From Snodgrassella alvi (GTDB lineage Bacteria > Pseudomonadota > Gammaproteobacteria > Burkholderiales > Neisseriaceae): a DNA stretch of 64,000 nt. The translations under genes and the position numbers were made by a program. Under the pieces are notes generated by a model, which made no database searches, had not been told where the DNA came from, and saw only the letters and a list, made by a program, of their open reading frames with translations. The stretch is from positions 434,001 through 498,000 of the forward strand of contig NZ_CP160328.2 in assembly GCF_040741455.2 (NCBI RefSeq), read 5' to 3'. Positions within the stretch are counted from its first letter, which is position 1. Each line of letters starts with the position of its first letter. Below are positions 35,615 to 53,322 of the stretch, piece after piece.

Positions 35615-35623
35615 ATTCGTTCC

Positions 35624-35704: not shown

Positions 35705-35837
35705 ATCTGTCTAATATAATCATCTAACCCTGCCGTTCAAGCAAATTAATATTCCCATATTCTCTAATTTAGTTTAAAGTAACTGAAAGTTTACCTGCTT
35801 TGTGCACAGCGTATGTGGCCTATGTCATTTGCGCTAA

Positions 35838-35901: not shown

Positions 35902-36021
35902 TATTTAAGCTATTTCTGAATATTTGATGTAAATAAACTACTTTTGTATAACAAAATAAACAAATTATAGCTATGATTAAAACTGAATTTAATTTATATT
36001 TTTTAAGAAATTTTTTTAAAA

Positions 36022-36288
36022 TTAAAACCCTTTTCTTTTCATGCATGCATCTTCAGCAGGACCATACACATTACTTAGCCAATCCTGCATTTCTTTTGAA
36101 CCTATATATTCATTTTTAGGACGAGGAAGTGATCGCAACTCTATAAAGCAATCATGAAATGCTGTATTCTTTTCCTTTGACCACGTATCCCATCCTGGCC
36201 CATTCCAAAAACGAACAACGGATTCGTAACACCCTGACATCCCAAGACATAAGATATTTATTAATATTATTTTTTTAATAAGCTCCAT
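36022..36288 (-). CDS. small lipoprotein, candidate immunity protein of the orphan cassette
   Basis: 88 residues with a lipoprotein signal (Lys-rich start, hydrophobic stretch and lipobox GMSGC near residue 20), then a short Trp/Cys-containing domain. It begins one base after the stop of the orphan CdiA C-terminal cassette (TGA-A-ATG), so translation is coupled. Position and small size make it the likely immunity or partner protein of the hydrolase-like tip. No family is recognised. Confidence 0.65.
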   Translation of the reverse strand: MELIKKIILINILCLGMSGCYESVVRFWNGPGWDTWSKEKNTAFHDCFIELRSLPRPKNEYIGSKEMQDWLSNVYGPAEDACMKRKGF

Positions 36289-36289
36289 T

Positions 36290-38383
36290 TCACTTTACTC
36301 CCTTAGGTTTAACTAAAATAGGTATAGATGGATTATCTTTGTTTATATTATGATTTGGGCCATACTTCCATTTTTCTTTAAATTCTTTATTGTAAGGATT
36401 TTCGTTTGTCTTCGTTCCTGTCAGATTCCCATCTTTATCAATATTTCTTCCTTTTTCATCTACCAAAACATCTTTTGGTTTTTCTCTGAAATAACTACTG
36501 TGCGAATACATAAACGGTTTATCTTCTACACCACCTGTAGGTGGATTACCTCCTATCGTATACCGACTACGGAACAATAGCAGTGGACTTCTACCTACAA
36601 AATCTGTGTAATGCACTGCTGAATAAGCTTTACTTCCTTCATAACCATTTATCAATAACTGGTCTGCATACTGTTGTACATTAGTTGCTGTACCGTAAAA
36701 TCTTGCTTCTCTTATTGGTATGCCGGTTAATCCATTTCGATTAGCATACTGTAGCGCATTACTTGCCGTCATCCCACCACGACTGTGGTTACTTAGGTCT
36801 ATTTTATAGCCTTTTTCTTTGGCATACTCATAAAGTAATATATTTGCTTTCTCTGAATTGGTCAAAGGCAGGTGGCTACCGCCCAAATCATTCACTTTAT
36901 CATAAAATGCATATACTCCTTCTGATAAAAAGTTGCTGGTTGGCGGATTGGCAACTACATAGATACCATCTGCTCCTGTTTCCCACAAGTTCTGCTTAAC
37001 CGCATTTTTTAATGCATCATTTAAAGGGTTGAGTATGCCAGGATTGGATATGGTTATTACACCTGTGTTCTGTCCAGGTTTGATTTCATTTATATCAAAT
37101 ATCTGTCTTTTATTCCCTATTTCTGCATAGGGACTTTCTGCATCTATCGGTCTGGTTTTCTTGTTATCGTAACTGTTATTGGAACAATATAAACCATCTT
37201 GTGCACAGGTTACATTCCATATCTGTATTGGTCTTCTGGCTGCTCTAACTGCGGGGTCAATAATAGCGTCGCCATCTGCATAAACCAGTGCAGCAGTATT
37301 ACCATACCCATAAACCGTACCTAATATCATATCTGTATAGAAGGCGGCTTTGTCCCATTTATCGGCACTCCCTTCCAGTGCCAGTGATTCGTTAGTGTTA
37401 TAACCATTTTTGCCGTCTATATAGTTGTCCTTACGAATATTTTCTGCCTGTTGGCGTTTATTATCGGCGATTTTATGCAAGATATTGCGTAATTCTTGAC
37501 GATTTTGGTCAAACTCCTGTGTGACTTCACGCTGTGTATCCAGCTCTTTCTGAACTTTGTCTTTGTCAAAGTTGTTGCTCAGGTAGCCGGCTTTATCCGC
37601 ATAGTTGTCGCTGCTGGTATCGGTATGAATTCCGGCTATGGTTTCGGCTACACTTTTGCCGGTTTTCTGCTGCTGAGCAGCAGCATCCGTAATGATGATG
37701 TTGCTCGTATTGATGCCGCTGTGGGTGGTACTGCTGCTATGGCCACTATCGTGTCCGAAGCCAAGGGAATTGCTCGCACCCGTTTCCCCCTGATTAGCCA
37801 GATTAATCTTGTCATTACCAGTAGGCTGTTTTTGTCCCAGTGTTGATCCACTAATGCTGCCACTGGCACCGATACCAATACTGCTACCACTATAATCACT
37901 ATGATTTTGGATATCGCTGCTCGTCAGGCTGCCGGTAATTACTTGGTTTTTGCCTGCCGCTTCGGCTGCTGCAGTAGAGGTGATGATGGCACCTTTGAGG
38001 TCGGTATTACCTTTGATGTTGAGCTGGTAGCCATCGTCACCGACAATGATGCCGCTTTGTTCTGTTACAGCAGCATAATCGGCTTTAATTTTGCTTTTAC
38101 TAAAGCTGGCGGATGCGGATGCGCCATAGCCTACTGTGACCTGCCCGCTGATATTCTGCTGTTTGCTGTTGTATTTGGCGGTGTCCTGCAAGCTTTCGAT
38201 ATTTAGTTCGGCTGCATCAATCTGTACGCCTTTACCTGCTACCTGTGCGCCTTTGATGTTGGTGGCTCCGCCGCTGGTGAGGCTGGTGTTGCCGCTGCTG
38301 CTGCCGATGTGGCTGTTGCGGTAGCTGGTTTCGTCGCCGTTGCCATGTCCTTTGCCGCAGTTGGCACCTGCGGTGATCTCGCA
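36290..38383 (-). pseudogene. orphan (5'-truncated) CdiA C-terminal cassette with hydrolase-like tip
   Basis: The frame is open from a TAA at 38384 to the stop at 36290 but has no convincing start (only TTG codons near 38191). The first ~290 codons copy the haemagglutinin region of the main cdiA (37516-38357 with 41268-42109). From REVTQEF on, the sequence is unrelated: about 400 residues including YVVANPPTSNF, and LSNHSRGGMTASNAL, which looks like a serine-nucleophile elbow of an alpha/beta hydrolase, seen at the tip of some large exoproteins. It carries neither the VENN-type pretoxin motif nor the toxin end of the main gene. It could be expressed only after recombination into cdiA. Confidence 0.8.
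37516..38357 (-). repeat. 842-bp direct repeat, orphan copy
   Basis: Matches 41268-42109 inside cdiA in the same orientation, with constant offset 3752 and no gaps, differing only at scattered single bases. Identity drops sharply at the left end and more gradually beyond the right end, where about eight codons remain recognisable. Confidence 0.93.
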
Positions 38384-38411
38384 TTAACCATAATATCTTT
38401 TTCACATAAAA

Positions 38412-38435
38412 AACCCACCTGTATTAAGGTGGGTT
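38412..38435 (-). terminator. Rho-independent terminator after the second lipoprotein gene
   Basis: Perfect 9-bp stem (38412-38420 with 38427-38435), six-base loop, followed on the minus strand by a T-rich run (38405-38411). It insulates the orphan cassette from upstream transcription, another reason to think the cassette is silent. The 38436-38546 spacer shows no gene. Confidence 0.88.
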
Positions 38436-38546
38436 AGTGCAGATAAATGGCCTAGTTCCTTTTCATCGGCGGTTTAATCAGGCGACGTTTACTGTCTAGC
38501 CCTTACACGTCGCTAACGATACTCTGTATGGTAGCAGCAATCTTAA

Positions 38547-38939
38547 TTAAAGGACTATTTCACCTCGTGCTCTACGCTCAGCTTTTTCTTTCTTTGATTG
38601 ATTCGATTGATAGGTTTGAAACGTGGGTGTTCCGCGATTTTCCATACACCTTTCAAACAAAGGTTGATTCCATACACCATTTGGGTAACCTTTTTCTTGA
38701 AGTCGATTTTCCGGCTTATTTGCCAGCTCTAGACAATAGTCTTGATTTTTTTTTCTCAGTTCTTTCATTTGCGGAGACTCAGCATCATAATAAGCATCAC
38801 TATCTTTCTGATAGCTTTTCCATGATGACCTATCCACATAATAACCGTTATACCAGTCCGATATACTGCAACCACCTACTAGCAGACTGATTCCTGTCAC
38901 AATTAATAAGCGTTTTTTACTTGGGCGGTAGTACTGCAT
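38547..38939 (-). CDS. small CDI-linked lipoprotein, copy 2
   Basis: From ATG 38939, 130 residues: a basic start, hydrophobic stretch and lipobox LVGGC, then ISDWYNGYY, DAYYDAESPQMKELRKKN, YC-ELANKPENR, YPNGVWNQPL-ERCMENRGTPTF, and a Lys/Arg-rich end AERRARGEIVL. Closely related to the copy at 39122. The frame opens at 39068, but the paralogue and a GAAGGT site favour 38939. As in copy 3, a short coding tail (HFLNYEGKKRHA) ends within its first codons in another frame. Function unknown. Confidence 0.72.
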   Translation of the reverse strand: MQYYRPSKKRLLIVTGISLLVGGCSISDWYNGYYVDRSSWKSYQKDSDAYYDAESPQMKELRKKNQDYCLELANKPENRLQEKGYPNGVWNQPLFERCMENRGTPTFQTYQSNQSKKEKAERRARGEIVL

Positions 38940-39028
38940 GACGTTTTTTACCTTCATAATTAAGAAAATGTCTGCTTGGGGAAATGCTTGATTTATTCTT
39001 TGGCTAAATGGTCTAGGGGTATTTATCG

Positions 39029-39092
39029 GTATAGTAAAAGGCATCAGAGTATTTGCTGTCGTTCTCATACACTGACGCCCGTTAATTAGCTA
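39029..39092 (-). repeat. 64-bp diverged repeat (copy 2)
   Basis: Partner of 35838-35901; see that entry. It lies just upstream of lipoprotein copy 2. Confidence 0.5.
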
Positions 39093-39121
39093 TAGGTAAA
39101 ACAACTTAGTAATTACATGTC

Positions 39122-39520
39122 TTATTGGTTTTCAGGAACTATTTCACCTTGCGCCCTGCGCTCAGCACGACGTTTCTTTGCCTGCATTGACATGTAGGCT
39201 TCATACGTTGGTGTCCCACGATCTTTCATACAACCATCATACATAGGAGTATTAAATACCCCATTTGGATATCCAGCTCTTGCTTCCCGATTTTCCGGCT
39301 TTTCTGCTAATTCAGTGCAATAGGCATCATTGTTTTTTCTCAGCTCTTTCATTTGCGCAGACTCAGCATCATAATAAGCATTCCTATCTTTTTGGCCTTT
39401 GATAATCGCAGCCTCTTCAGCATAATAACCGTTATACCAGTCCGATATACTACACCCTTCTAATAACAGACTAAGGACTGTCAGAATTACTAACTTTGTT
39501 TTACTTAAACGGATCTGCAT
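39122..39520 (-). CDS. small CDI-linked lipoprotein, copy 3
   Basis: From ATG 39520, 132 residues with lipobox LLEGC and the same body as copy 2 (ISDWYNGYY, NAYYDAESAQMKELRKNN, TELAEKPENREARAGYPNGVFN, CMKDRGTPTYEAYM, KKRRAERRAQGEIV). A GGAGG site 11 nt before this ATG supports it over the earlier one at 39568. Its first codons overlap the last codons of the 46-codon ORF in another frame. It ends the cdiA-immunity-small ORF-lipoprotein string and is likely exported and lipid-anchored. Role unknown; an accessory immunity or entry-blocking function is speculation. Confidence 0.75.
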   Translation of the reverse strand: MQIRLSKTKLVILTVLSLLLEGCSISDWYNGYYAEEAAIIKGQKDRNAYYDAESAQMKELRKNNDAYCTELAEKPENREARAGYPNGVFNTPMYDGCMKDRGTPTYEAYMSMQAKKRRAERRAQGEIVPENQ

Positions 39521-39641
39521 AGTATTTCTTACCTCCATAGTTAAAGTAGCGTTTGCCATTAATTTCATGAATGGGTATTTGCGTGGTTTTATGGGTCATA
39601 GTTTTTTGGCCATTAATTGTTATATTATCCTCCCGCCCCAT
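39501..39641 (-). CDS. 46-residue ORF coupled to the immunity gene
   Basis: The ATG at 39641 overlaps the stop of the immunity candidate (TAATG). The 46 codons encode a Lys/Tyr-rich peptide (MGREDNITINGQK ... HEINGKRYFNYGGKKYYADPFK), and the last 20 bases overlap the start of the lipoprotein gene. A decayed copy with the same end and same overlap lies at 34951-35040. The coupling at both ends and the conserved peptide argue that it is, or was, a real gene; it may also be the tail of a lost toxin. No family is recognised. Confidence 0.5.
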   Translation of the reverse strand: MGREDNITINGQKTMTHKTTQIPIHEINGKRYFNYGGKKYYADPFK

Positions 39642-40153
39642 TAAATTACTATTCCGACATCTTTACCTTTCATTCTATCTTTGCTATCTATTTTTCTTTC
39701 TGGACATTTATGAGAATAAGTATTTAACCATTTTTTTTCTGACGAACTTAAATCAGATAATAATTTATATGTTTTAGGGTATAGATGAATATTTATATTA
39801 TTTTCTAATTTATTTTTTTTTAGATTTATTTTACCCAAATATAAATTATTATCGTAATAGCAAAATCCTTCATCAAAAGTACCATTTACATAGGTAAAGA
39901 ATATATCTTCTCCTTCTTTTATATAATCATGAACAAGTGCATGAACATATACATAATTATGGATATCACTATCATCCAAAAGTTCATATTCGAAAACAGA
40001 ATCTCCATAATAATCGGATCTAAATATATATTTTCCATATTTATCATCAGTTATTCCAGTAAATAAAAATACAAACCAAATGATATATCCAACTATTAAA
40101 AACAATAATAGCATAAATATGGTAAATATTTTATGTTTCCAAAACCAATTCAT
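39641..40153 (-). CDS. immunity-protein candidate of the CDI-like locus (CdiI)
   Basis: 170 residues with one N-terminal membrane helix (about 10-33) and a Tyr/Asp-rich domain. It starts 8 bp after the stop of the cdiA-like gene with an AAGGA site, the position of cdiI, and has a much lower GC than cdiA, as is common for immunity genes. It has a paralogue at 35120 next to a remnant of the same toxin tip. A membrane anchor suggests it neutralises the toxin at the inner membrane. No named immunity family recognised; role inferred from position. Confidence 0.72.
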   Translation of the reverse strand: MNWFWKHKIFTIFMLLLFLIVGYIIWFVFLFTGITDDKYGKYIFRSDYYGDSVFEYELLDDSDIHNYVYVHALVHDYIKEGEDIFFTYVNGTFDEGFCYYDNNLYLGKINLKKNKLENNINIHLYPKTYKLLSDLSSSEKKWLNTYSHKCPERKIDSKDRMKGKDVGIVI

Positions 40154-40161
40154 TTTTTTCC

Positions 40162-43100
40162 TTATTTACTATAAATTACATTTGGTTTGCTTTTTATATG
40201 GATTTTATAACTTGTACCCTTACCTGGAGAACCTATCCATGTTTCAATGTTTCTGGGAATCGATTTTAAACCATTATGCATTTCAAAATCATAGCTATCA
40301 TCAATATATCGGATTTTTTGCTTATTAATCTTATCTCTACTAATAGTAACATGACCGAATACTCCCCAATCTTCATAATGTGAATATGGGACATGTCCTG
40401 TCCATTTTTCTTCATTTGATACTGCTGGATTTTGATCCCAAGCCCCATTCTTTGCATTTTTAGGTAAAACAATGCTTATTACTTTATTTTCAGGCAAGTT
40501 AACCACTAAATCAGAATTTTTATTTATTGTATACAAATAATCTGCAACCATTTTATTCAAAGGAATTTTACCTGCTTCGATATCTTCAACTAGTTTTTTA
40601 ACATTTGTGCCGTATTGATTTTTTAACTTTTCCTTAAGTTCATTATTTTGCTTTCTAGTTTTTTCAGGAGTAGTCCCAAAATAAGGCCAATCATTATTGT
40701 TTAGGTTATTATCCACAGCCGTATGCGCAGCCTGATTACCCTGCGCTGTATCTGCCATACTTCCACCCGCTACCGCTCCCGTAGCCGCTCCTGCCAGTCC
40801 TGATATTGCTGACACAGTTGCTTTCTCTTCTGCCGTTAAATCCTTTGGTTCTTTGTCATACAGCCATTTCGATACCACTGGACCTATCGCCTCTGATCCT
40901 CCTGCCGCCAATGCTCCTGCCAATGCATCATTCCCTCCTGCTGCCGCTACCGCTGCACCTAATACTGCATGTGCCACCAGATGGGCTGTGCTGCCTTCAG
41001 CATCTTTGCCTTTAAAGTATTGGCCTATCTGATAGGAAACCACCGGACTGGCTGTGGCTGCCAATATGCCCCCTACGCTATTGGTTGGTGCGGCCAATCC
41101 TGCTCCGATGGCATTCAGCAGTAAGCCGCCTGTGTTCCATTGCGACAGTTCTTTTTCGTATTGTTCCCGCTCTGATAAGGTCAGGTTTTCGTCTTTCAGT
41201 TTTTCTTTCAGGCTATCCTTTTTGCTGTTTATCATTGCTGAGGTAGCCTGTATATTGGCGCTGAATTCCTGTGTGACTTCACGCTGTGTATCCAGCTCTT
41301 TCTGAACTTTGTCTTTGTCAAAGTTGTTGCTCAGGTAGCCGGCTTTATCCGCATAGTTGTCGCTGCTGGTATCGGTATGAATTCCGGCTATGGTTTCGGC
41401 TACGCTTGTGCCGGTTTTCTGCTGCTGGGCAGCAGCATCTGTAATGATGATGTTGCCAGTATTGATGCCGCTGTGGGTGGTACTGCTGCTATGGCCACTA
41501 TCGTGTCCGAAGCCAAGGGACTTGCTGGCACCCGTTTCCCCCTGATTAGCCAGGTTAATCTTGTCATTACTAGTAGGCTGTTTTTGTCCCAGTGTTGATC
41601 CACTAACGCTGCCACTGGCACCGATACCAATACTGCTACCACTGTAATCACTATGATTATGAATATCACTACTGGTCAGGCTGCCGGTAATTACTTGGTT
41701 TTTGCCTGCCGCTTCGGCTGCTGCTGTAGAGGTGATGATGGCACCTTTGAGGTCGGTATTACCTTTGATGTTGAGCTGGTAGCCGTTGTCACCGGCAATG
41801 ATGCCGCTTTGTTCTGTTACAGCAGCATAATCGGCTTTGATTTTGCTTTTACTGAAGCTGGCAGAGGCAGAGGCGCCATAGCCTACGGTGACCTGCCCGC
41901 TGATATTCTGCTGTTTGCTGTTGTATTTGGCGGTGTCCTGCAAGCTTTCGATATTTAGTTCGGCTGCATCAATCTGTACGCCTTTACCTGCTACCTGTGC
42001 GCCTTTGATGTTGGTGGCTCCGCCGCTGGTGAGGCTGGTGTTGCCGCTGCTGCTTCCGATATGGCTGTTGCGGTAGCTGGTTTCGTCGCCATTGCCATGT
42101 CCTTTGCCGGCATTCACTCCGGCAGTAATACCTAACTTTGGACCACCTGAACCAATGCCGATGGTGGCACCGGCATTCCAGCCACTGGATTTGTTGCTGC
42201 TGCGCTCGCTGTGGTTTTGTTCGGCCGCCAGCAGGTTGATTTCGTTGTCTGCCTGTAAGTGTGTACCTTGTTTGCCATTGACATCTGAGCCAATGATGTT
42301 GATGTTGGAATCCTGTCCGGCTCCGGTTGCCAGTAGGTTGACTTCACCACCGGCATTAATCTGGCTGGCGGCGGCGACGCTGTCGCGGCTGTGGGTTTCA
42401 CTGCGGCTTTTTTGCTGGCCTACGGTGATGCTGACGCTGACATTGGTGGCGTTTTGTGGATTGTTGGCCAGGTCGGCGGCGGCATTGCCGGCTTTATACA
42501 AGTCTACGCCGGCATTGAAGGCTGCCATGGCGTTGACGCGCGCGTTTTTGCTTTCGCCTATGCGATTTACGGCGGTGCTGGCTGTTTGGATGGCATTGAC
42601 TATGGGTACGTTGACGGCTACGGTAAGGCCGCTTTTTTCGAAGGTATGGATGTTGTCTCGGCTGTACTGGTCTTCGGCTGCGTTGATGTCTATCTGTTTG
42701 GCTATGATGTTTACGTTACCTTGCGGGGAGGAAACGCTGCTGCCGGTTTGGGTATAGTGGTTGCCGGCTACAATGGTGGTGTCTCCGTTGAGGCTGCCAA
42801 CGCTGCTGCCGCTGTGGATGGTGCGGCGGCTGGTGGTGTCATCGGTTTCTTTCTGTTTCCCGATGCTAAAGCCGATGCCGCCACTACCCATTAGGCCGGA
42901 TTTGGTTTCTTTGTGGTATTCCTGATCTTGATACTGGTTGGACGCCGCTGTGATGTTAACATCCTGGCCGGCTTTCAGCACTGTGCCATTATCGGAGATG
43001 ATGTTGCTGCCACGGATGTTAATATCTTGATCACTACTGATGCTGACTTTGGCGCCGGTGATATTGCTGCCTACAGCTTCATCATAGTTGGCCCGCGATT

Positions 43101-46100
43101 GGTCAAGACTGGTTTTTTTGGACATTAGGCCGCTGGATTTGATGTAGACGGAGTGGTCTAGCTCGGTCTGTTGACGCCCTTCTATGATATTGACACCGTT
43201 TTTGCCGTGCAGGCTGACGTTGCCGTTTTCGCTGTTGATGTCGCCCTGCCGGATGTTGAACTGGTCTGCAGCCTGTATTTGTATATCACCGGCAGCACTG
43301 ATGCTGGTGCCGTTTTCGTTTTGATAGTGGTTTATCCAGTGGTTTTTGTCGCTGCTGCTGCCGTCTGTCATGTCGCGGCGGGTAGTAACGGTATTGAGGT
43401 CGATGCTACCGGCACTGCTGCTGAGCTGTGTAGTGCCATTATCTGCATTGTTGACGATGCTGGCGCCACGGGTAGTGATGCCGTGGGTACCGGCTACGCT
43501 GAGAACAGCGTCTTTGTCTCCGGTGACATACAGCCCAGCGGTGCGGTCGATAACGGTACCACCGTTGCGTTCATCGCCATAGCTGGCTGTGGTGGTGTTG
43601 AGGTTGATTTTATCGGCCTTGAGGCTGAGTAGGTCCTTACCTACTGCGGATCCGCCGTTGAAATTGATGCTGTCATTGGCGGTAAGGGCTACTTTGCTGC
43701 CGCTAAGCATGCCACTATTGTCAATATTCTGTGCCCCCAGACTGAGGATGTTCTGGCCGGCAATGCTGCCCTGATTGTTGATGTTGCCACTGTTTTGCAG
43801 GTTGATGTTGTGCGCACTGATTAGTGCGCCGGCTGTGGTCACGTCGTTATCACGTACTTTCAGGTAGATTTTGGGTACGAGTACGGTCTGCTGGCTGCCA
43901 TCGGCTAGGGTGACGGTCTGGTTGACCAGCCACACCATGTCGCTGGTAAGCTGTGCCATTTGCTCGGCACTTAATGCGACACCGGGGGTGATGTGAAACT
44001 GCTGTGCAAAGCTGATGCCGGCATTCATGAGTGCTTTGTACTGCTCTTCGTCATTACTGTAGCCTTCCAGCCGGCGGTAGCCGGTAAGCTGTGCTATCTG
44101 TTCGTTTATCAGTTTTTGTTCGTAATAGCCATCACCCAGCCGTTTTTGCATTCTGTCTGGGTTCTGCCCTAATGCGCTGAGCATGTAGTCGCTGCCGAGC
44201 CATTTTTTCATGTTGGTGAACGCTGGATCGGTTTCAACCAAATAGCCGCTGTTGGTGGGATTGATGTGGTACAGGCTGCTGTTGGGCAAGTTGGTATTGA
44301 AGCGGCTGAGACTTTGGATGCTTTGGTTGTGGTTTTCTGTCTGTGTCTGCGCTTTATCCTGTGGTTGCAGCTGATTGCCTGTTTTTGCCTGTTCGGCTTT
44401 GCCTTGATTGGCACTGATGCCGGCATGTTGCTGTACAACGCTTACTGGTGTGTCAAATTCATGGCTGGTTATGATGGTTTCGTTATATGGCTTTTCGCCT
44501 GTTTTTTTAATTTTACCGGAGCCCAGTTTGGGATTTTTATATTTGTATCCGCCCTGTTGACCATGATTTTCAACCCGCTGCTGGCCTTTGGTTTCTTGGT
44601 TTTCCAGATTGAGGCTGTCACCACCGGTCAGATTGCCACCGATGATGATACGGCTGTTGTTATTGACCCAGTGTTCGCCACTGATGGTTAGGTCGCCGCC
44701 GATGATGATTTCTGCTGGCTGGCTTTCGGTGACACGCTGTTTGTAGGTATCACTTTTATAGTCCCACCATTTTACGTCTTTAGCTGAGTATTTTTTCCAT
44801 TTTTTATTGGTGCCGTCATTGAATTTGAAACTGAGTTCTTTTTTTCCTTTTTTGAATTTTCCATCCACACCATCTACCCAGATTGCTGGATTGCCTTTTT
44901 CTTGTATCTGGAAGATTTTTTTACTGTTGTCGAGATATTCTTCTACAGCAAAATGATTATTCAGATTCTGTAGTTGCCGTACGGCGATGTTGCCATTTCC
45001 CTGCGCTTCGATGCGCGCGCTGCTGTTGAGCAGATTATCTGCCATGCCCACAGCCTGATGCTGTTGGTTTAGGCTGCCACCGATGGCGATGTCACCCTCG
45101 CTGGAAAGCAGGGCGTGTTCTTTGTTAACGATATCAGTTGCACCAATGTCCAGCCGCTGGCGTGCGGCTATCACTGCTGCTTTGGTTTCGGTGCCGCTGG
45201 TTTCTTCCTGATTGTATAAATCATGGCTGCCAATGGCGACATGGTTGCCATAGATGCGGCCGGTGCCGATGTTGTTGATGCTGTTTCCGGACTGTACTAG
45301 TGTGGTGCCGTTGCTGTTTATCAGGCCACGGTTGGTGATTTTGCTTTGTGCCTGTAATTCGGTTTGATTGTTGCTCTGAATGGTGCCGCTGGCCTGATTG
45401 TCGATATCGGCTGCCTGCAGACGCACGCTGTCGCCGCCACTAAGGGTATGGCTGTTGCTGATCGTCCCTTGGCTGCTGATAGTCAGGTTGTGACCGGCGG
45501 TGATGTCTGCATCGACGCTGAAGTTATCTGTTAATGCGATTTCTGCATCGTGGCCGGCGGCAATGGTGCCCGGGTTATTCAGATTTTGTGCTTGCAGGGT
45601 AAGATTCTGGCCGGCAATGATTTGTCCGTTCTGGCTGTTATCTATTTGCAAGGCGTTACCGCTGATATAAACGTCTTTTTGCGAGCTAATCTGTCCCTGC
45701 TGGTTGTTCAGGCTTTGGTTGATGCTGGTGCGCGTTTCTCCATTGGCACGTATGGCTCCGTGGTTGTTATTTAGTGTGTCAGCATTAATTTTTATGTTTT
45801 CTGCGTCTACTGTGCCTTGTTGGTTATTGAATCCGCTGCTGTGAATTTCTGCTTGCTGTGCAGCACTGATTTTACCCGCTGTGTTATCGATATTACCGGC
45901 TTGAATGGTGAGCTGACCATTGCTGCCTATCTGGCCGGTATGGTTATTAAGCTGATTGGTTACGGTAAGCTGCTGGGCGTTGACGCTGCGAATAGCCCCC
46001 AGCTGATTATTTATGCTATCCGCTTTCAGTTGCAGACTGTCACTATCGATGGCGCCACTATTGTTATTTAGGTTGGCCGTTTGTATTTCAGCAGTTCCTC

Positions 46101-48036
46101 CACTCCATAGCTGCCCGCCTTTGCTATTGTCAATTTGCCCACTACTGTGTAGCTGCAGTTGTTTCTGTGCCGCTATGACGCCGCTATCACTGTTGTCGGT
46201 GTTCTCTGCCTCTATGGCTATTTGTTCCGTCGACTGGATCCGGCCTTTGCGGTTGTCCAGTTCTTTGCCTGTGTACTGGAACGGTCCTCTGCTGCTGATT
46301 TCACCACTGCGGTTATCCAGCCGGCCTGTGCTGATGCGGGCTTCGCCGGTGTTGAGTTTTCCTTGCTGGTTGTCGAGCAGTTCGCCGCTTACTTGTAATT
46401 TGTTTAGGTTGAGGGTGCCACGGTTGGTCAGGCCGTTATGTGCGTTCAGGTCGATGCCACCATTGGCAATTATTTGGCCGTTGTCGTTGAGAATTTCTTG
46501 TTCGCTGATGATTTGGCCGCTGGCAAATTGTTTGGGGGTGCCCGCCGCTGCTTCGGTCTGGCCTGCGCCTGTGGCAATGGTCGGTACGGGGGTATCCTGG
46601 TTTTCTGCCGGTTTCTGCGGCCTGGCTGGCTGTTCTGTTGTGGCTGATTCGCTGCTGTTGCTGGTTGGGGGTTCTGATGGTGCATAACCGATCAGGCTGT
46701 TGCTGCTGTTATTCAGTTTATTCAGATCCAGTTTCAGGCTTTGCTGGCCGCTCTGGATGATTTTGCCCTGCTGGTTGTAGATGCTGCCGCTGCTGATGTC
46801 GAGCCGGCCGCCGTTGATTTCGCCCTGATTGCTCAGTTGCTGCCGGTTGCGGATGTTTAATTCGTCGGCACTGGTGATTAAACCGCTGTTGTCTAGCTGC
46901 TGGCTTTGTAATTGCATTTTGCCTTGGCTCGACAGGGTGCCGCTGTTGCGGATGCTGTCTGCATGTATGGCTGCTGTGGCCTCTTCTGCGGCGCTACTGT
47001 TTTTATCTGCGGCAACGATGCTGCCGCTGTTGCTCAGTCTGCCATCGGTACTGATGCTGACGCCTCCGGCTCCGGCAAAGATTTGGCCGGCATTGTTGAT
47101 GCCGACGCCTTTGTCGTTGCTGATTAGTACGATTTTGCCGGCATACATGCCACCTAGGCTGCTGCTGTCTATGGCTATGCTTTGTTTGTCCGATATATTG
47201 TTGTTTACGTTGGCGGTGATCTGCCCTTGGGCATTGATGTCATTACTGCCGGTACTGATGTTGAGTTTATTTGCCCAGATGCCGGCATTGATTTGCGCTG
47301 CTTTGGTCAGGATGTTGGTGTAATCACTGCCGCTTGTGTCCAGACCCTGTCCGTTGATGCTGATGTTGCCTCCCCGTACCTGAAAGCCGTCCAGGCTGCC
47401 GTTATTGAGTACGGGTCTGCCGGTGGTTAGGGTGACGCCGGCAGCATTGATAAAGCCGCCGCCATTGACGCTGATACCGGACGGGTTGGCCATGATGACT
47501 TCGGCTCGTCGGCCGGCTACTTCGATGTAGCCGTTGAGCCGGCTGGGATTGCTGCTGTTGATTTGGTTGACGATGATGCCGGCTTCGCCTTTGGCCAGCC
47601 ATGGGTTGCCTTGTATCCACCCAGCCTGTTTGGTCTGGGTGCTTTTACGGCTGTTGTTGAGGATGGCTCCTTGTTTGTTGACGTCTAATTGCCGGTACTG
47701 GTTGATGGATACGCCGCCTTTGCTCGGGGTCTGGATGTTGATTTGCGGGATGCCGTTGGCGGTTTGGAGGATGGTGGGTTGCTGGTTTTTGGGAGCAGAC
47801 GGGTCGGCATGGATGTCTGCGGCTATGGCAGAGTGATTAATGAGTACGCATAGACCTAATCCGAGTAGGATGGAGCTGGTTAATACGGGTAGTCTAGCCA
47901 GTAGGCTGCTGAAGATGGTGCCGCCGCTTTGATTACGGTCTGCGGTGCTTTTGCCTTCACGGATGGTGTTTTCGGCTACGGCAACCAGAATTCCTCTTTT
48001 TTTGTTGAATATGACTTTGTATCTGTTTTTATTCAT
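40162..48036 (-). CDS. cdiA: CdiA/FhaB-like two-partner secretion exoprotein (contact-dependent toxin)
   Basis: 2624 residues. An extended signal peptide (1-72, MNKNRYKVIFNKKRG... ending SAIA) targets the Sec pathway. The TPS domain (about 75-330, with NPSGISVNGGGFINAAG) is recognised by the TpsB partner. A long FHA-1-type beta-helix of NNQ/GxI repeats runs to about 1150. A conserved non-repetitive segment at about 1250-1395 (WLGSDYML, KRLGDGYYEQ, PGVALSAEQMAQLTSDMVWLV) matches the region next to the receptor-binding part of CdiA. FHA-2 repeats follow to about 2200, then an Ala/Gly-rich pretoxin region ending in VDNN (2441-2444). The last 180 residues are the variable toxin tip, without a recognised family. 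Confidence 0.93.
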   Translation of the reverse strand: MNKNRYKVIFNKKRGILVAVAENTIREGKSTADRNQSGGTIFSSLLARLPVLTSSILLGLGLCVLINHSAIAADIHADPSAPKNQQPTILQTANGIPQINIQTPSKGGVSINQYRQLDVNKQGAILNNSRKSTQTKQAGWIQGNPWLAKGEAGIIVNQINSSNPSRLNGYIEVAGRRAEVIMANPSGISVNGGGFINAAGVTLTTGRPVLNNGSLDGFQVRGGNISINGQGLDTSGSDYTNILTKAAQINAGIWANKLNISTGSNDINAQGQITANVNNNISDKQSIAIDSSSLGGMYAGKIVLISNDKGVGINNAGQIFAGAGGVSISTDGRLSNSGSIVAADKNSSAAEEATAAIHADSIRNSGTLSSQGKMQLQSQQLDNSGLITSADELNIRNRQQLSNQGEINGGRLDISSGSIYNQQGKIIQSGQQSLKLDLNKLNNSSNSLIGYAPSEPPTSNSSESATTEQPARPQKPAENQDTPVPTIATGAGQTEAAAGTPKQFASGQIISEQEILNDNGQIIANGGIDLNAHNGLTNRGTLNLNKLQVSGELLDNQQGKLNTGEARISTGRLDNRSGEISSRGPFQYTGKELDNRKGRIQSTEQIAIEAENTDNSDSGVIAAQKQLQLHSSGQIDNSKGGQLWSGGTAEIQTANLNNNSGAIDSDSLQLKADSINNQLGAIRSVNAQQLTVTNQLNNHTGQIGSNGQLTIQAGNIDNTAGKISAAQQAEIHSSGFNNQQGTVDAENIKINADTLNNNHGAIRANGETRTSINQSLNNQQGQISSQKDVYISGNALQIDNSQNGQIIAGQNLTLQAQNLNNPGTIAAGHDAEIALTDNFSVDADITAGHNLTISSQGTISNSHTLSGGDSVRLQAADIDNQASGTIQSNNQTELQAQSKITNRGLINSNGTTLVQSGNSINNIGTGRIYGNHVAIGSHDLYNQEETSGTETKAAVIAARQRLDIGATDIVNKEHALLSSEGDIAIGGSLNQQHQAVGMADNLLNSSARIEAQGNGNIAVRQLQNLNNHFAVEEYLDNSKKIFQIQEKGNPAIWVDGVDGKFKKGKKELSFKFNDGTNKKWKKYSAKDVKWWDYKSDTYKQRVTESQPAEIIIGGDLTISGEHWVNNNSRIIIGGNLTGGDSLNLENQETKGQQRVENHGQQGGYKYKNPKLGSGKIKKTGEKPYNETIITSHEFDTPVSVVQQHAGISANQGKAEQAKTGNQLQPQDKAQTQTENHNQSIQSLSRFNTNLPNSSLYHINPTNSGYLVETDPAFTNMKKWLGSDYMLSALGQNPDRMQKRLGDGYYEQKLINEQIAQLTGYRRLEGYSNDEEQYKALMNAGISFAQQFHITPGVALSAEQMAQLTSDMVWLVNQTVTLADGSQQTVLVPKIYLKVRDNDVTTAGALISAHNINLQNSGNINNQGSIAGQNILSLGAQNIDNSGMLSGSKVALTANDSINFNGGSAVGKDLLSLKADKINLNTTTASYGDERNGGTVIDRTAGLYVTGDKDAVLSVAGTHGITTRGASIVNNADNGTTQLSSSAGSIDLNTVTTRRDMTDGSSSDKNHWINHYQNENGTSISAAGDIQIQAADQFNIRQGDINSENGNVSLHGKNGVNIIEGRQQTELDHSVYIKSSGLMSKKTSLDQSRANYDEAVGSNITGAKVSISSDQDINIRGSNIISDNGTVLKAGQDVNITAASNQYQDQEYHKETKSGLMGSGGIGFSIGKQKETDDTTSRRTIHSGSSVGSLNGDTTIVAGNHYTQTGSSVSSPQGNVNIIAKQIDINAAEDQYSRDNIHTFEKSGLTVAVNVPIVNAIQTASTAVNRIGESKNARVNAMAAFNAGVDLYKAGNAAADLANNPQNATNVSVSITVGQQKSRSETHSRDSVAAASQINAGGEVNLLATGAGQDSNINIIGSDVNGKQGTHLQADNEINLLAAEQNHSERSSNKSSGWNAGATIGIGSGGPKLGITAGVNAGKGHGNGDETSYRNSHIGSSSGNTSLTSGGATNIKGAQVAGKGVQIDAAELNIESLQDTAKYNSKQQNISGQVTVGYGASASASFSKSKIKADYAAVTEQSGIIAGDNGYQLNIKGNTDLKGAIITSTAAAEAAGKNQVITGSLTSSDIHNHSDYSGSSIGIGASGSVSGSTLGQKQPTSNDKINLANQGETGASKSLGFGHDSGHSSSTTHSGINTGNIIITDAAAQQQKTGTSVAETIAGIHTDTSSDNYADKAGYLSNNFDKDKVQKELDTQREVTQEFSANIQATSAMINSKKDSLKEKLKDENLTLSEREQYEKELSQWNTGGLLLNAIGAGLAAPTNSVGGILAATASPVVSYQIGQYFKGKDAEGSTAHLVAHAVLGAAVAAAGGNDALAGALAAGGSEAIGPVVSKWLYDKEPKDLTAEEKATVSAISGLAGAATGAVAGGSMADTAQGNQAAHTAVDNNLNNNDWPYFGTTPEKTRKQNNELKEKLKNQYGTNVKKLVEDIEAGKIPLNKMVADYLYTINKNSDLVVNLPENKVISIVLPKNAKNGAWDQNPAVSNEEKWTGHVPYSHYEDWGVFGHVTISRDKINKQKIRYIDDSYDFEMHNGLKSIPRNIETWIGSPGKGTSYKIHIKSKPNVIYSK
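41268..42109 (-). repeat. 842-bp direct repeat, cdiA copy
   Basis: Same segment as 37516-38357. In CdiA it encodes the end of the FHA-2 region just before the pretoxin part, so recombination here would replace everything from the pretoxin region to the tip. Confidence 0.93.
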
Positions 48037-48103
48037 GATTTTTCCTGTTATTCGGCCGTACAGCCTGGGCTAACGGCGTTCTGATATGTGTGGTTTGATT
48101 GTG

Positions 48104-49876
48104 TTATATGGAATAGTTGAGGCTGAAGCCAACGGTGGTATTGGCGGTACGGAAGTACTGGGGTTTATATATTGGTTTGCCGGCAAAGATGTCGTAATAC
48201 CACTGGCCGCCGGCTTTCATCTGGCCTTTGAAGCCGATAACGGCACCAGCTAGTGTTTTACCCAGCTGCATTTCGGTGGCGGGACCGGCAACGTGGCCGA
48301 TATCCAGCCCCAGATATACCTGATGGGTACCTAGATATTGCCAGCTGAGGTTGTTGTTCCAGTACCAGCCTCGTTCTCCCATGAGGGTGACTTCGCCGTC
48401 AAATCCGCGCACGGTATAACGGCCACCGATGGAAAGCTGGTCTTGGGTAATTAAGGGGGTTTTGTTCCACTGGCTGTGAAGGGAGCTGTCGAAGCTGAGG
48501 CGTTGTCTGCCCAGGGTGAATGGCTGCGTGTAGCCGATGTCGGCTGTGATGATTTTCATGCGCGATGTGCCTTCGCCAAATTCTTCTTCGGGTGCCCGCA
48601 GGCTGTGATCGGCACCGGTACCACGGCGGTAACCTAATCCGATGTTGACGGTGCCATTACCTATGTATTCTTGATGATTTAGGTTGACTGCCCAGCCGGC
48701 AGTATGCCGTTGCTGTACTTCGATTTCGGCATCGTTTACGTAATTATGGGATTGCCGACGCCATAATTTGGCGGTGATGTCGGTTTTGCGGTGGCTGTCG
48801 CGATACAGCAGCCGCGTTAGTCCGATGTCGCTGTTGTCGCTTTTGCCGTTGTAGTCGTAGTTTTCGTTGTATCCGGCTACGGCCTGATGATAACGGTAAT
48901 GGTTGCGGTTATACGCTATCAGCCAGTTGCCATAAGGTATTGAGTAATGCAGTGCATAGCCACGGGTACCGCTGCCGGTACGGTTGCCATCGCTGTCCAT
49001 TTGACTGTCTTTGCTGCCTAAATCATGGTTGTAGTTGATATAAAATAAATCACTTAGTCCTAATGGATTATCTGCTGATAATGTGACGCCTCCCTGATAA
49101 CGCCCTGTGGAATGGCTGCCGGAATCGTCTGCGTTAAAACTTATACGAAAGGGAATGGTTCGTTGTGACCAGCTGATGACGATGTCGCTTTCGTTCGGTG
49201 CTTCAGCCGGTACTATCTGGATATCAGCTTCGGCGGTGGGAACGCGACGCAGGTTTTCTAGTCCCTGCTCTAGCTGCCGCAGATTCAGGATGTCTCCGGC
49301 TCTGGCTGGAAATTCGTTCTGGATGCGGCGAATACGCTCTACGTGGGTGGTTGCTGCATTGTCTAAATTGTAACGGATGGTATGGATTCGCCCCGGAATG
49401 ACGCTGAGCTGTAAGGTGCCGCTGGTAAGATCCTGTGGTGTGGCTAAAATACGGGTGGTGGTGTAGCCACGTTCGATGACGGCATTCTGTGCCAAGGTCA
49501 TGATCTGGTTGATGGCTTTGCTGCCTAGGCACATGCCTGCGGTAAACTGGCTCTGGCGCTGCGCTTTTTTTAGGGCAAACTGGAACCGGCTGGCTTCTTC
49601 TCCTGTCAGGGTGATGCTGTTGATGGCAAAACACGGGGTTTCGTTGGTTATCAGTTTGTCTGTCTGTGTTGGGTTTTCTTCTTGTGGCTGTAGACGAATA
49701 TTTACTTCAGGCTGCATTTGCTGCTGAAACTGCTGCTGGCGCTGCTGTTCACGAATGATTTGCTGTTGCTGCTGACGGTCCAGCCGGGAAGCTACTTCTG
49801 ATACCGGAGAGGCGTAAACACTTATAAGACCACTAGCCAAGAAATTGATAAGCAATACGATTTTATGTAGATACAT
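48104..49876 (-). CDS. TpsB/CdiB-like outer-membrane transporter (ShlB/FhaC family)
   Basis: Exports the CdiA-like protein across the outer membrane. 590 residues: signal peptide (1-22), a Gln-rich segment (about 33-60), tandem POTRA domains (about 75-240, with CFAINSITLTG and VIERGYTTTRILATPQDL), then a 16-strand barrel with the lid motif region VRGFDGEVTLMGERG and a C-terminal aromatic strand (GFSLNYSI). It lies 67 bp upstream of cdiA on the same strand, the usual B-A order. The first gene of the operon; its promoter must lie in the long spacer upstream. Confidence 0.93.
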   Translation of the reverse strand: MYLHKIVLLINFLASGLISVYASPVSEVASRLDRQQQQQIIREQQRQQQFQQQMQPEVNIRLQPQEENPTQTDKLITNETPCFAINSITLTGEEASRFQFALKKAQRQSQFTAGMCLGSKAINQIMTLAQNAVIERGYTTTRILATPQDLTSGTLQLSVIPGRIHTIRYNLDNAATTHVERIRRIQNEFPARAGDILNLRQLEQGLENLRRVPTAEADIQIVPAEAPNESDIVISWSQRTIPFRISFNADDSGSHSTGRYQGGVTLSADNPLGLSDLFYINYNHDLGSKDSQMDSDGNRTGSGTRGYALHYSIPYGNWLIAYNRNHYRYHQAVAGYNENYDYNGKSDNSDIGLTRLLYRDSHRKTDITAKLWRRQSHNYVNDAEIEVQQRHTAGWAVNLNHQEYIGNGTVNIGLGYRRGTGADHSLRAPEEEFGEGTSRMKIITADIGYTQPFTLGRQRLSFDSSLHSQWNKTPLITQDQLSIGGRYTVRGFDGEVTLMGERGWYWNNNLSWQYLGTHQVYLGLDIGHVAGPATEMQLGKTLAGAVIGFKGQMKAGGQWYYDIFAGKPIYKPQYFRTANTTVGFSLNYSI

Positions 49877-50891
49877 TTTGCTCTTTAAATATGTAAAGTA
49901 AATTATGACTGCCTGTGATCCATGTAGCTCTAAAGATAGGCAATATTGCCTTTAATAATGAGGCTGGTATTTTCGGCTTTGAATGGATAGTAAAGAGTAA
50001 TGAATATAATTTTATGGTGATTTTTATTCATTTAATCTGGCTGGTTTATAAAAATATTGCGTTGTAGAATGCTGCCCCTATGCTAAAAATGAAGCAATTA
50101 GTCTGAAGATTTCAAATACTGTTTTATTTCCACATAATTTATAAAGAAAATTACTTGAGGTTAGACTTCTGTTTATTGCAACTACAATAATGGACAAATC
50201 TGTAAAAATATTAGTAATAGGAAGACAATTTTTTCAGAAAGTTTCCAAAAATTATAATCGTCATGATTGCTTTTTAATATTAATTTTTATTAAGAACATT
50301 GGAATTTAGTCTATTTAATTACTACTAATATGCATATATGATATTAACAAATTAAATAAATATTATAATAACATTATGATATATATAATAAATATTTTTA
50401 TTCAAATTTTATTCAATATTATTTTCAGATAAAGACTTTAGCATTAATGAACTGTTAATTTTTAGCAACAATATTAGCATTATCTCTTGATTGCCTATCT
50501 AAAATATGAGCCATATGCCATAAAAGATAATGAGATTAATTGATTAAATAGGGGTAAATAACCTGATTCTACTCATGATGTAGTAACTTTGAAAAATCGC
50601 ATCGTGAAGGTTACTGAAATTTAGAAATCTGAAAAATTTCAAATATGCTATTTGTATGGAATTGGTTTTATGAATGAGGGGAGAAATAAGCAATACATGT
50701 AAGAGACATACTTATAGTCTGCGTATTCATACTTGGCGGGCCTTTCTTACATCTTTTCTACTCCAATTAAAATCAGCTTTTTTAAAAAGTCTATATGAAT
50801 TATCTGGAAAAAATATTGGGTGACAAATCACTATATTGAATTGCAATTGCCCAGATGTAGATATTAAACTTAATAGGAGGAAAAAAGATTT
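49877..50891. other. 1-kb AT-rich intergenic region
   Basis: Over 1 kb of very AT-rich sequence with many stop codons in all frames. It must hold the promoter of the tpsB-cdiA operon at its left end. It shows a run of TATATA-type sequence around 50330-50400 and a weak inverted repeat near 50580-50612. No gene, tRNA or CRISPR is seen. Confidence 0.5.
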
Positions 50892-51548
50892 TTATTCTAA
50901 ACATTTGTTTGCAGTTAAATAGCTGATTTCCTTTAATACTTGGTCATTATCAATAAAATGAATAGTTTGCCATCCTCTTTTTTGAGCGGCTACACAATTT
51001 TCTTCTGTGTCATCAATTAGGATACAGTGTTGCGCAGTTGTGTTGGCTTGTTGCTCAGCTATTTGAAAGATGGTCTGGTCTGGCTTTCGGCAGCCAACCT
51101 TACAAGAATCCACTATTATATCCAGCACGTCATCAAGGTTTATCATAGGCCGCCAGTAAGCTTCCCATTCTCTGACATTATTGGTTAATAAACCTATGGT
51201 GAATCCGGCTTTCTTTAGTTGCCGAACTTTATCTATCATAGGTGTATTTGGTTGAATATTTTCAAACCATTGACGCCCGAAATGTTCCAGATCGGCTTTT
51301 GAAGTGTCAATATTTGGTTGGAGCTGGGTCAATCTGTTTTTTACCCGTCTGCCCCACTCTTGCTCACTGATTAAACCAATTTCTAGAGGCTCGAGTCCTG
51401 TATAGCCAAATTCAGCAGCAGTGTCTTTTACAGCTTGCAACATGATATTTGCTGGTAATTGGGTTTTCTGCTGGTATTGATAGATAATTGCTTTAATTGG
51501 TGGCGTAAGTACGCCCCCGAAATCAAACCAGAATATAGGCTTATTCAT
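50892..51548 (-). CDS. HAD-superfamily hydrolase in an operon with the AfsA-like gene
   Basis: 218 residues with all four HAD motifs: FWFDFGGVLTPP (nucleophile Asp9, with Gly in place of the usual second Asp, as in the YihX-like subgroup), GLLTNNVREWEAYW (motif II), KVGCRKPDQTIFQ (motif III Lys) and CILIDDTEENC (motif IV). A helical cap lies between motifs I and II. Probably a phosphatase of a small phosphorylated metabolite. It starts 15 bp after the AfsA-like gene, so it may dephosphorylate that enzyme's butenolide-phosphate product. Confidence 0.85.
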   Translation of the reverse strand: MNKPIFWFDFGGVLTPPIKAIIYQYQQKTQLPANIMLQAVKDTAAEFGYTGLEPLEIGLISEQEWGRRVKNRLTQLQPNIDTSKADLEHFGRQWFENIQPNTPMIDKVRQLKKAGFTIGLLTNNVREWEAYWRPMINLDDVLDIIVDSCKVGCRKPDQTIFQIAEQQANTTAQHCILIDDTEENCVAAQKRGWQTIHFIDNDQVLKEISYLTANKCLE

Positions 51549-51563
51549 GATAATGACTCTGCT

Positions 51564-52553
51564 TTAATGGGATAAAATTTTAAAGGTGACGTCTACACTC
51601 GCCATTGTTTTGTCTTTCTGTTTTATCACAATAGGGAACGTAATGGTCTGATTTTCTTGTGAGGTGTCCAGTACCATTTTTGCTTTATCTATCACGCAAT
51701 CTACATCTGACCCTAATTCACAAAAGGCTTTGAAATTCAGGCAGCAAGAGATTAACTCAAGCAGATTTGCCGGTAGTTGAAAACATTTTCTGATAGCGAT
51801 TAGAGCTGTTTGTTTGCAAAGTTCTACTAAGACCATGCCTGAAATATGGTCTACTTCATGGTCACAAAGTGCCGAATAGCTGGGATCGAAACCTAAAGTT
51901 GTTTGAATAGTTGCGTGATTTTCAATCAGGTTAGTTGCTACGACATTTTTACTCAGGTTTTTACCAACCATAAATGCTGGAAGAGGAAAGTAATTTTCAG
52001 AATAATCATTGCCAAGCGAAACAGATTGAATGGCTGTTTTTTTTCTTAATTTGGTCCATAGTGCTTGGTTTAGCCAGTGCATGGTGGTCTGTGAATGAGC
52101 ACACGGTAAATTGTTAATATAAAGTTGTTCACTTAATGTTAGACCGGTTAAAGTATCGCGTTTGGTTTTAAATGTCAGTATTTTAATGTCTATAAACACA
52201 TCAGCTGGATAGTTAATCATTTTTAACAATTGATGATTTTTAATTTTTAATTGTGTGTTATCAATGATGAAAATATTGGAAAATGGTATCTGATAGAATT
52301 GATGTGTGATGCTAATGGCTGCCTGCCGAAATATTTCCTGTAGCAATATCGCATCATAATATCCCGTAAGATTATCATTGAAATACATATGCGTACGCGG
52401 AAGCTGTGCCGTGACTAGAAACTGATCTTGTTTGGTAGTTTTTATTGAAGTGATAAACACTTCACTTATGGCACGTTTATGTACCAATTTTTTGTTAATG
52501 CATTGAGCAGAATATGCCTTTGTCCCCACACTATTTTCATGCTGTAAATCCAT
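51564..52553 (-). CDS. AfsA-like (A-factor biosynthesis hotdog) protein
   Basis: 329 residues built of two related halves, as in AfsA/ScbA, which joins dihydroxyacetone phosphate to a beta-ketoacyl chain on the way to gamma-butyrolactone signals. First half: VHKRAISEVFITS, PRTHMYFND, LLQEIFRQAAISITHQFY. Second half: YSALCDHEVDHISGMVLVELCKQTALIAI, the same D-H...E...R/K-Q-A pattern. No membrane segment. AT-rich like its surroundings and unexpected in Neisseriaceae, so likely acquired. Whether it makes a signal or another lipid (AfsA domains also occur in other pathways) is open. Confidence 0.8.
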   Translation of the reverse strand: MDLQHENSVGTKAYSAQCINKKLVHKRAISEVFITSIKTTKQDQFLVTAQLPRTHMYFNDNLTGYYDAILLQEIFRQAAISITHQFYQIPFSNIFIIDNTQLKIKNHQLLKMINYPADVFIDIKILTFKTKRDTLTGLTLSEQLYINNLPCAHSQTTMHWLNQALWTKLRKKTAIQSVSLGNDYSENYFPLPAFMVGKNLSKNVVATNLIENHATIQTTLGFDPSYSALCDHEVDHISGMVLVELCKQTALIAIRKCFQLPANLLELISCCLNFKAFCELGSDVDCVIDKAKMVLDTSQENQTITFPIVIKQKDKTMASVDVTFKILSH

Positions 52554-52968
52554 TTTTCAGCCCCTATTTAAAATTTTATACTAATCTGCAATTGATTATT
52601 ATTATGTTTTGTATAGGTGGCAAATATAATCCGTGAATTATTTTAATGTGTTGTAAATTTTCAAAAAAATTTTTATTAAGTATTTATATTCAGGCTCGCT
52701 TGGAATTTTATTTTCAGATACTTTGCAGTTATCAATTCTTTTCAATGCCGTTTGGTAGCCACACATAATATTAAGAGGTTTATATTAACTAGCTTTCTGA
52801 TTGTGTCTGAATCGTTGTTTTTTTATATTTAGCTTGCAGTGTTATTTTGAGTATTACAGTAAATATAAAATGGAAGTTTTTTCTTTAATTAAGAAAAAAC
52901 TTCCTTTGATGGCCAATACACTATGATTAATATCTAAGGTTGGATGATGTAGGTTCGTGTAATGCTTT
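52554..52968. other. intergenic region upstream of the AfsA-like gene
   Basis: 415 bp, AT-rich, containing the terminator of the gene to its right (52872-52904). The promoter of the AfsA-HAD operon should lie between about 52560 and 52800. I see no gene and no clear operator palindrome. Confidence 0.45.
52872..52904 (-). terminator. hairpin terminator after the 117-residue gene
   Basis: Perfect 14-bp stem (52872-52885 with 52891-52904) with a five-base loop and A/T-rich flank, 64 bp after the stop of the gene at 52969. Confidence 0.75.
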
Positions 52969-53322
52969 TTAGTTGTTGCCAAAGTGATGATGCTGTATCC
53001 GTTGATAGTTGTACCAGTTTTTCTGATTAGCCATTAAATTTGTTTGGTTATGTTGCAGCTGGTTATAATTTTGAGAATCATCTTTAATGTCCATTCCGTC
53101 TTCATGAGTTTCTGCAACGGTAACACTGCCTGACTGAACTTGCTGCTGAAACTCCATTTTGCGTGCTTTCTTATCGAGCATGGAAATATGAATTTCAGTA
53201 TCGTATATGCTCTTCAGCTCCAGCAGCTTTTGATATGTGGCAATTAATTCTTTATTTTCAGGAGTGCGCATGATTTGCCCTTCAAGAAATTCACGGCACT
53301 TATTAAATTCTTCGGTTCTCAT
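52969..53322 (-). CDS. small protein of unknown function with Asn/Gln/His-rich tail
   Basis: 117 residues, no signal peptide or membrane helix. Residues 1-60 look like two charged helices, perhaps a coiled coil (EEFNKCREFLEGQIM, ELIATYQKLLELKSIYDTEI). The C-terminal third is rich in Asn, Gln and His (QNYNQLQHNQTNLMANQKNWYNYQRIQHHH), which could bind metal or be unstructured. A single gene between the AfsA operon and clpB, with its own hairpin terminator. Unrecognised. Confidence 0.65.
   Translation of the reverse strand: MRTEEFNKCREFLEGQIMRTPENKELIATYQKLLELKSIYDTEIHISMLDKKARKMEFQQQVQSGSVTVAETHEDGMDIKDDSQNYNQLQHNQTNLMANQKNWYNYQRIQHHHFGNN

Follow-up and report, generated by a model that had tools for sequence, protein, structure and literature searches.

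Enzymes of the AfsA family are best known from the hormones of actinomycetes, and members of the family produce signals in Streptomyces. In the parts of PMC7756379 available to us, an AfsA-like domain condenses 3-ketothioesters with dihydroxyacetone phosphate (DHAP) in vitro to yield a phosphorylated butenolide, SAB synthesis depends on the phosphatase SabP, and an intermediate of the same type is proposed for several product classes. The same text describes the gladiostatin polyketide synthase of Burkholderia gladioli, a Gram-negative bacterium, in which the butenolide reaction of an AfsA-like domain was shown in vitro. The available portion of PMC7037778 proposes that the phosphatase AhfaP, like MmfP, dephosphorylates a phosphorylated-butenolide intermediate; these methylenomycin furan pathways (MmfL/MmfP/MmfH and AhfaL/P/H) include, besides the synthase and phosphatase, a flavin enzyme and a pair of TetR regulators. 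In the accessible text of PMC7564063, srrX is placed among srrP (phosphatase), srrO (P450) and srrG (dehydrogenase), and the dephosphorylation in SRB synthesis is drawn as spontaneous.

The locus described here lies in a 64,000-nucleotide stretch of the Snodgrassella alvi genome, referred to below as the window, and belongs to a Snodgrassella lineage from the guts of Asian honeybees. The initial annotation of this DNA was aware of no butyrolactone signal described in bee-gut or neisserial bacteria; two papers, both from 2022, do report afsA or a butyrolactone cluster as specific to one Snodgrassella group. The available text of PMC9239279 includes an AfsA of 330 aa among the genes that all ‘Apis group1’ Snodgrassella have and other groups lack, the group being represented by three Asian honeybee strains; afsA is there related to virginiamycin induction and mentioned under antibiotic production, and the list of 19 genes names no HAD protein. 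In the part of PMC9598484 at hand, which covers 88 strains, the clade ‘Snodgrassella 7’ is the sole Snodgrassella clade with an antiSMASH butyrolactone cluster; such clusters are also found in Gilliamella, whose butyrolactone is discussed as a quorum-sensing molecule possibly acting on the host. ‘Apis group1’ and ‘Snodgrassella 7’ are probably the same species, and neither text, to the extent available, names a metabolite of the Snodgrassella gene or cluster. The presence of afsA in Snodgrassella is hence already in print, which reduces the novelty of the locus; as far as our searches show, the new elements are the pairing with a phosphatase gene and its relatives, the lack of an adjoining receptor, the Lys247 change and the variable site.

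The AfsA-family protein (329 aa) is encoded on the minus strand at 51564..52553 and is a putative phosphorylated-butenolide synthase. Both halves match the hotdog profile PF03756 above the curated cut-off of 24, with 64.1 and 50.7 bits (E 2e-17 and 3e-13, as calculated for one genome), and the whole protein matches with E 8.5e-32. The motif residues are D67, E73, R76 and Q77 in the first half and D231-H232, D235-H236, E244 and Lys247-Gln248 in the second. The D-H...E...Q-A motifs noted in the initial annotation are thus present, with the correction that the second half carries Lys-Gln where the other AfsA rows carry Arg-Gln. The window protein retains 17 of the 18 positions that are invariant across 18 other full-length rows, some of which are near-copies of one another. 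No related solved structure was found at E <= 1. The closest relative from a named genome, and the sole one found in that collection, is the AfsA of S. alvi wkB298, which is 95% identical.

Downstream of afsA, across a spacer of 15 bp (51549..51563, minus strand), lies the gene for a HAD-IA phosphatase of 218 aa (50892..51548, minus strand), which is proposed to dephosphorylate the AfsA product. The two reading frames and their distance are exactly as initially annotated, and the short spacer is consistent with a single transcript. The HAD protein matches Pfam HAD_2 (E 4e-13, 50.2 bits, over the cut-off) and Hydrolase (E 2e-12), as well as TIGR01509 (58.1 bits, over the cut-off); its best NCBIfam match is TIGR02247, the epoxide hydrolase N-terminal-like phosphatase model, with 91.6 bits under a cut-off of 125.4. 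D9 (in DFGGV), T122, K155 and D179-D180, the residues of the four HAD motifs, are all present, and the residue two positions after D9 is glycine, likewise in the linked relatives described below. The best of 13 matches among solved structures are soluble epoxide hydrolase chains, in which query residues 8-214 align with the N-terminal end. This part of soluble epoxide hydrolase is a lipid-phosphate phosphatase domain.

Upstream of afsA, a motif scan returned two sigma-70-like matches on the minus strand (52664-52637 and 52623-52595, within 52595..52664); the 15 such matches across the region are not above chance (mean 15.8 in shuffled sequences). A 14-bp hairpin with a T-rich tail (52872..52904, minus strand) between a 117-aa reading frame and afsA would cut the pair off from the upstream gene; it is the single terminator-like hairpin of the region and is again not above chance (mean 1.5 in shuffles).

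Comparison with the described systems reveals that the synthase and phosphatase core of the Mmf and Ahfa pathways (PMC7037778, in part) and of the Streptomyces SabA/SabP/SabD and SrrX/SrrP/SrrG/SrrO sets (PMC7756379 and PMC7564063, in part) recurs in Snodgrassella, with the phosphatase gene linked to the synthase gene at 15 bp, SabP, SrrP and MmfP being likened to the HAD protein by description. Unlike the Sab and Srr sets, the Snodgrassella pair is not flanked by a reductase, a P450 or a receptor; neither the flavin enzyme nor the TetR regulators of the furan pathways adjoin it. In contrast to the gladiostatin enzyme, where the synthase forms the terminal domain of a polyketide synthase (PMC7756379, in part), the Snodgrassella AfsA is a free protein of two halves. 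The A-factor-type synthases AfsA, ScbA and BarX are likewise two-half AfsA proteins and correspond to the model that fits the Snodgrassella protein best, NF041195 (ScbA/BarX equivalog); the latter differs from them in scoring 165.5 bits, below the cut-off of 200, in having Lys for Arg at 247, and in adjoining a phosphatase rather than a receptor.

We regard the pair as a two-enzyme module that forms a butenolide, comprising a phosphorylated-butenolide synthase and its phosphatase, a reading to which we assign a probability of about 0.6. The genes, their domains, their pairing and their co-occurrence are established; the chemistry and the role of a linked phosphatase would carry over from other AfsA-family systems described in papers. 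The AfsA-like protein would condense a β-ketoacyl thioester from fatty-acid synthesis with DHAP, the resulting ester would close to a phosphorylated 2-acyl-3-(hydroxymethyl)butenolide, and the adjoining HAD enzyme would strip the phosphate to release a diffusible hydroxymethylbutenolide, perhaps subject to further modification by housekeeping enzymes. From homology and pairing we infer that the Snodgrassella pair would make such a hydroxymethylbutenolide, and we infer likewise that the synthase is active despite Lys247, together with its probable substrates, product and biological role. The logic of synthesis followed by dephosphorylation, put forward in the initial annotation, is supported, and an AfsA protein with a linked phosphatase has precedents in Streptomyces. 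The pair is minimal, apart from any other biosynthetic or regulatory gene of such systems, and its host is a bee symbiont that can be cultured and belongs to a genus containing genomes with and without it; if a butenolide is made, the pair would be an easy way to test whether molecules of this type function in the bee gut and what an AfsA enzyme does without an adjoining receptor.

A different outcome, that the AfsA-like enzyme has altered or lost its original activity and the HAD protein has been retained for another substrate, is suggested by the residue at 247 and by the rate of change of the gene. Lysine occupies this position in both Snodgrassella rows, whereas each of the 18 other full-length rows, and likewise both half-length rows aligned, has arginine there; the second Snodgrassella protein additionally has Leu for Val at 205. 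The arginine of ScbA matching this position is reported to matter for activity. Between two Snodgrassella genomes of one species, dN/dS is 0.35 for afsA, 0.07 for had and 0.06 for the start of clpB, so that constraint is looser on afsA than on had or clpB. HAD phosphatases are often broad in substrate. Nevertheless, the amino-acid changes in afsA (18 nonsynonymous and 14 synonymous, 18/32) are still fewer than the neutral expectation (p 0.005, by a count test assuming independent changes), as are those in had, and the remaining 17 invariant positions are intact in the window protein. The HAD gene is also missing from the 12 afsA-less genomes of the genus and is therefore no housekeeping gene of the genus. 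On balance we consider a loss or change of synthase activity unlikely.

The NF041195 score can be set against those of other AfsA proteins. Two receptor-linked AfsAs score 274 and 372, while five full-length AfsAs from HAD-adjacent loci score 107.5, 186.6, 200.9, 207.9 and 219.3, three of the five passing 200, and one half-length HAD-adjacent protein scores 35.9.

Within the genus the two genes are found together or not at all. PF03756 was matched in 2/14 genomes, namely that of the window and a second one from its species, and the HAD protein in the same two, so that afsA and had are jointly present or jointly absent in 14/14 genomes (two of the 12 genomes that lack the pair are less than 90% complete). 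The survey thus bears out conservation as a pair. Farther afield, PF03756 was matched in 7/83 genomes of the family, with one of these matches below the family cut-off, and in 4/350 of the class sample, own genome included, which makes AfsA enzymes rare in this class. The AfsA-like protein as query returned 2/300 genomes of the order and 2/369 of the class, again with its own genome included.

Homologous pairs occur elsewhere. Three genomes (G329, G739 and G741) of a genus in another family of the order encode AfsA (3/10 genomes of that genus and 3/61 of that family), and at all three loci AfsA, HAD, P450 and MFS genes stand in a row, the first two separated by 1 bp. Identity to the Snodgrassella proteins is 51% for the HAD of this pair and 30% for its AfsA; in G329 a divergent ArsR-type regulator adjoins the AfsA-HAD operon, and the G329 AfsA as query found 1/398 genomes of the phylum, that of the window. 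On plasmid pFiD188 of Rhodococcus fascians, AfsA is followed after 2 bp by a homologous HAD, in an operon that also holds an MFS, a monooxygenase and an aldo/keto reductase gene. In Streptomyces goshikiensis the HAD gene follows and overlaps AfsA, and in Streptomyces sp. NBC_00388 the two adjoin in reversed order. The R. fascians and other-family loci resemble Snodgrassella in that both synthase and HAD-IA phosphatase are homologous and adjoining; unlike the Snodgrassella pair, they sit in longer operons with an MFS exporter and an oxygenase. A P450 is also present in the Srr cluster, as SrrO.

Among plasmid records, 147 had an AfsA match and 23 a HAD match at E <= 1e-8, so that a homologous HAD is the exception rather than the rule among plasmid AfsA loci. 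The seven best of the 23 and one weaker record were inspected. Five of the seven strongest adjoin AfsA, among them one plasmid represented twice and two Streptomyces records that are apparently near relatives; in Nonomuraea the AfsA lies ~11.5 kb away, and in Embleya none lies within 8 kb.

AfsA proteins also have neighbours from another HAD subfamily, PF12710, whose similarity to the Snodgrassella HAD is barely detectable. Since two distinct HAD types adjoin AfsA, a functional tie between synthase and phosphatase is suggested. Three genomes from a different genus within the family each encode a half-length AfsA (249-250 aa) that overlaps a HAD of this type (L005 710-2136, L017 9288-10714 and L018 8892-10321), assigned by Pfam on L017 and L018 and by likeness on L005. 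A DUF2165-type membrane protein follows, and an MFS exporter comes next in L017 and a similar reading frame in L018. At a plasmid end of Klebsiella michiganensis BD177, whose source is Bactrocera dorsalis, a PF12710 HAD, AfsA, an acyl carrier protein and asnB stand in a row (L023 7175-10949), and in G669, a distant member of the class, a half-length AfsA comes directly after a homologue of the PF12710-type HADs (L082 8102-9557). No HAD homologue was found in the stretches examined near the AfsA of G665 and G696, the latter lying close to a contig end, or within the ~3 kb examined around weak or partial AfsA matches in G037 and G057.

The surroundings of other AfsA genes bear on the role of the product. 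Ten plasmid AfsA loci were hand-picked from the 147 across the ranking, from annotated records and with the known HAD-adjacent ones excluded. At 10/10 of them a gene labelled ScbR or TetR is present within 4 kb, and at 8/10 such a gene is the direct neighbour, whereas a HAD gene is the direct neighbour at 0/10, partly a product of that exclusion, and lies within 4 kb at 1/10. A TetR gene within 4 kb is present at two of the HAD-adjacent loci, those of R. fascians and NBC_00388. In the tree, the ten receptor-linked plasmid AfsAs cluster (93/95) and the Snodgrassella protein clusters with the other-family proteins (93/97); the branches are long, both of these key splits are below the star threshold of the tool, and the remaining HAD-adjacent proteins have no firm placement. 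Two half-length Neisseriaceae rows were excluded from the tree and from the count of invariant positions, and the half-length proteins of G005, G665, G669 and G696 are outside the alignment.

The initial annotation proposed a butyrolactone-type signal, of which the AfsA family and the linked phosphatase stand, and the signal role is less supported: no ScbR/ArpA-type receptor is linked to the Snodgrassella pair, and no TetR gene stands beside it, as compared with 10/10 of the plasmid loci. In its fullest form this proposal is a complete butyrolactone or butenolide circuit, in which the pair would make an autoinducer, and a TetR or LuxR-type protein encoded elsewhere in the genome would detect it and set group behaviour in the gut of the Asian honeybee. 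Apart from the Streptomyces signals and the quorum-sensing view of the Gilliamella butyrolactone (PMC9598484, in part), it draws on a TetR protein in the own genome that spans nearly the whole ScbR model (NF041196) with 85.6 bits. This score is, however, below the cut-off of 150, and the match is genus-wide, occurring in 13/14 genomes (12 with a long match of 81-87 bits) and likewise in 12/14 control genomes. As a partner of afsA the ScbR-like TetR was therefore rejected, because just 2 of the 13 genomes that have it carry afsA. With no receptor, activator or exporter beside the pair, and with receptor-linked AfsAs on a separate branch, we hold the complete circuit to be possible, yet doubtful. 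A signal role may apply, but the claim is weaker than first put. The pair is the biosynthetic half of a butenolide or butyrolactone system without a dedicated receptor half alongside. That a pair of this kind, off the receptor-linked branch and with Lys for an otherwise invariant Arg, might make a butenolide of a new kind by which one symbiont species of the honeybee gut acts on its neighbours or host is a speculative idea to which we give little credence.

The reading as a butenolide-forming module is weakened by Lys247, the NF041195 score below its cut-off, the looser constraint on afsA, the rarity of homologous HAD genes at plasmid AfsA loci, the lack of a third biosynthetic gene beside the pair and the spontaneous step drawn in PMC7564063 (in part). 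It is favoured by the matches in both AfsA halves, the 17/18 invariant positions, the HAD motifs and epoxide-hydrolase matches, the co-occurrence of the genes, the homologous pairs, the dN/dS values and the literature.

The pair is flanked on one side by an FhaC/FhaB-type secretion locus, comprising a transporter of the FhaC/ShlB type and an exoprotein of 2624 aa, and on the other by the 117-aa reading frame and clpB. No reductase, P450 or other oxygenase, receptor, activator, exporter or third biosynthetic gene adjoins the pair, and the earlier statement that neither reductase nor receptor is adjacent is right for these neighbours. Alignment with a congener (G074, L057) delimits a variable block, 34007..52970, from yaaA to the 117-aa reading frame and clpB, which holds both the FhaB/FhaC-type locus and had-afsA: the DNA match ends at 34006 after yaaA and restarts at 52971, leaving 18,964 bp here and 607 bp there. 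Neither afsA nor had was found in 11 congener stretches before clpB, two of which are short. Several of these congeners have other genes in front of clpB, so the site is a variable one.

This setting bears on a further alternative, in which the pair would be a short pathway whose butenolide product, antimicrobial or active on the host, serves in competition and not in self-sensing. The operons of the best linked relatives hold exporters and oxygenases (P450 and MFS in one case; MFS, monooxygenase and aldo/keto reductase in the other), the pair shares one variable block with a secretion locus, and PMC9239279, in the part available, places the gene under antibiotic production. On the other hand, exporter and tailoring enzyme are absent beside the Snodgrassella pair, and the link to the secretion locus may reflect merely a shared insertion at a variable site. 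A competitive role of this kind is accordingly a tentative proposal that we judge to be on the unlikely side.

The GC content at third positions is 0.324 for afsA and 0.352 for had, values that seven core genes in the window also span (0.32-0.386), so that composition gives no hint of a recent foreign origin of the pair. As fhaB is GC-rich by the same measure (0.561) and the pair resembles core genes, the secretion locus and the pair could have been acquired on separate occasions. A role in anti-phage defence was also considered and dropped, with no PADLOC match at E <= 0.01.

The interval from yaaA to clpB (window 34007-54082; L054-L064) varies among Snodgrassella genomes, and several carry different inserted genes. 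The two-partner secretion locus itself spans 36290-49876 and includes a separate C-terminal exoprotein piece at 36290-38191, which repeats part of the end of the 2624-aa exoprotein. In this respect the locus resembles those of contact-dependent inhibition.
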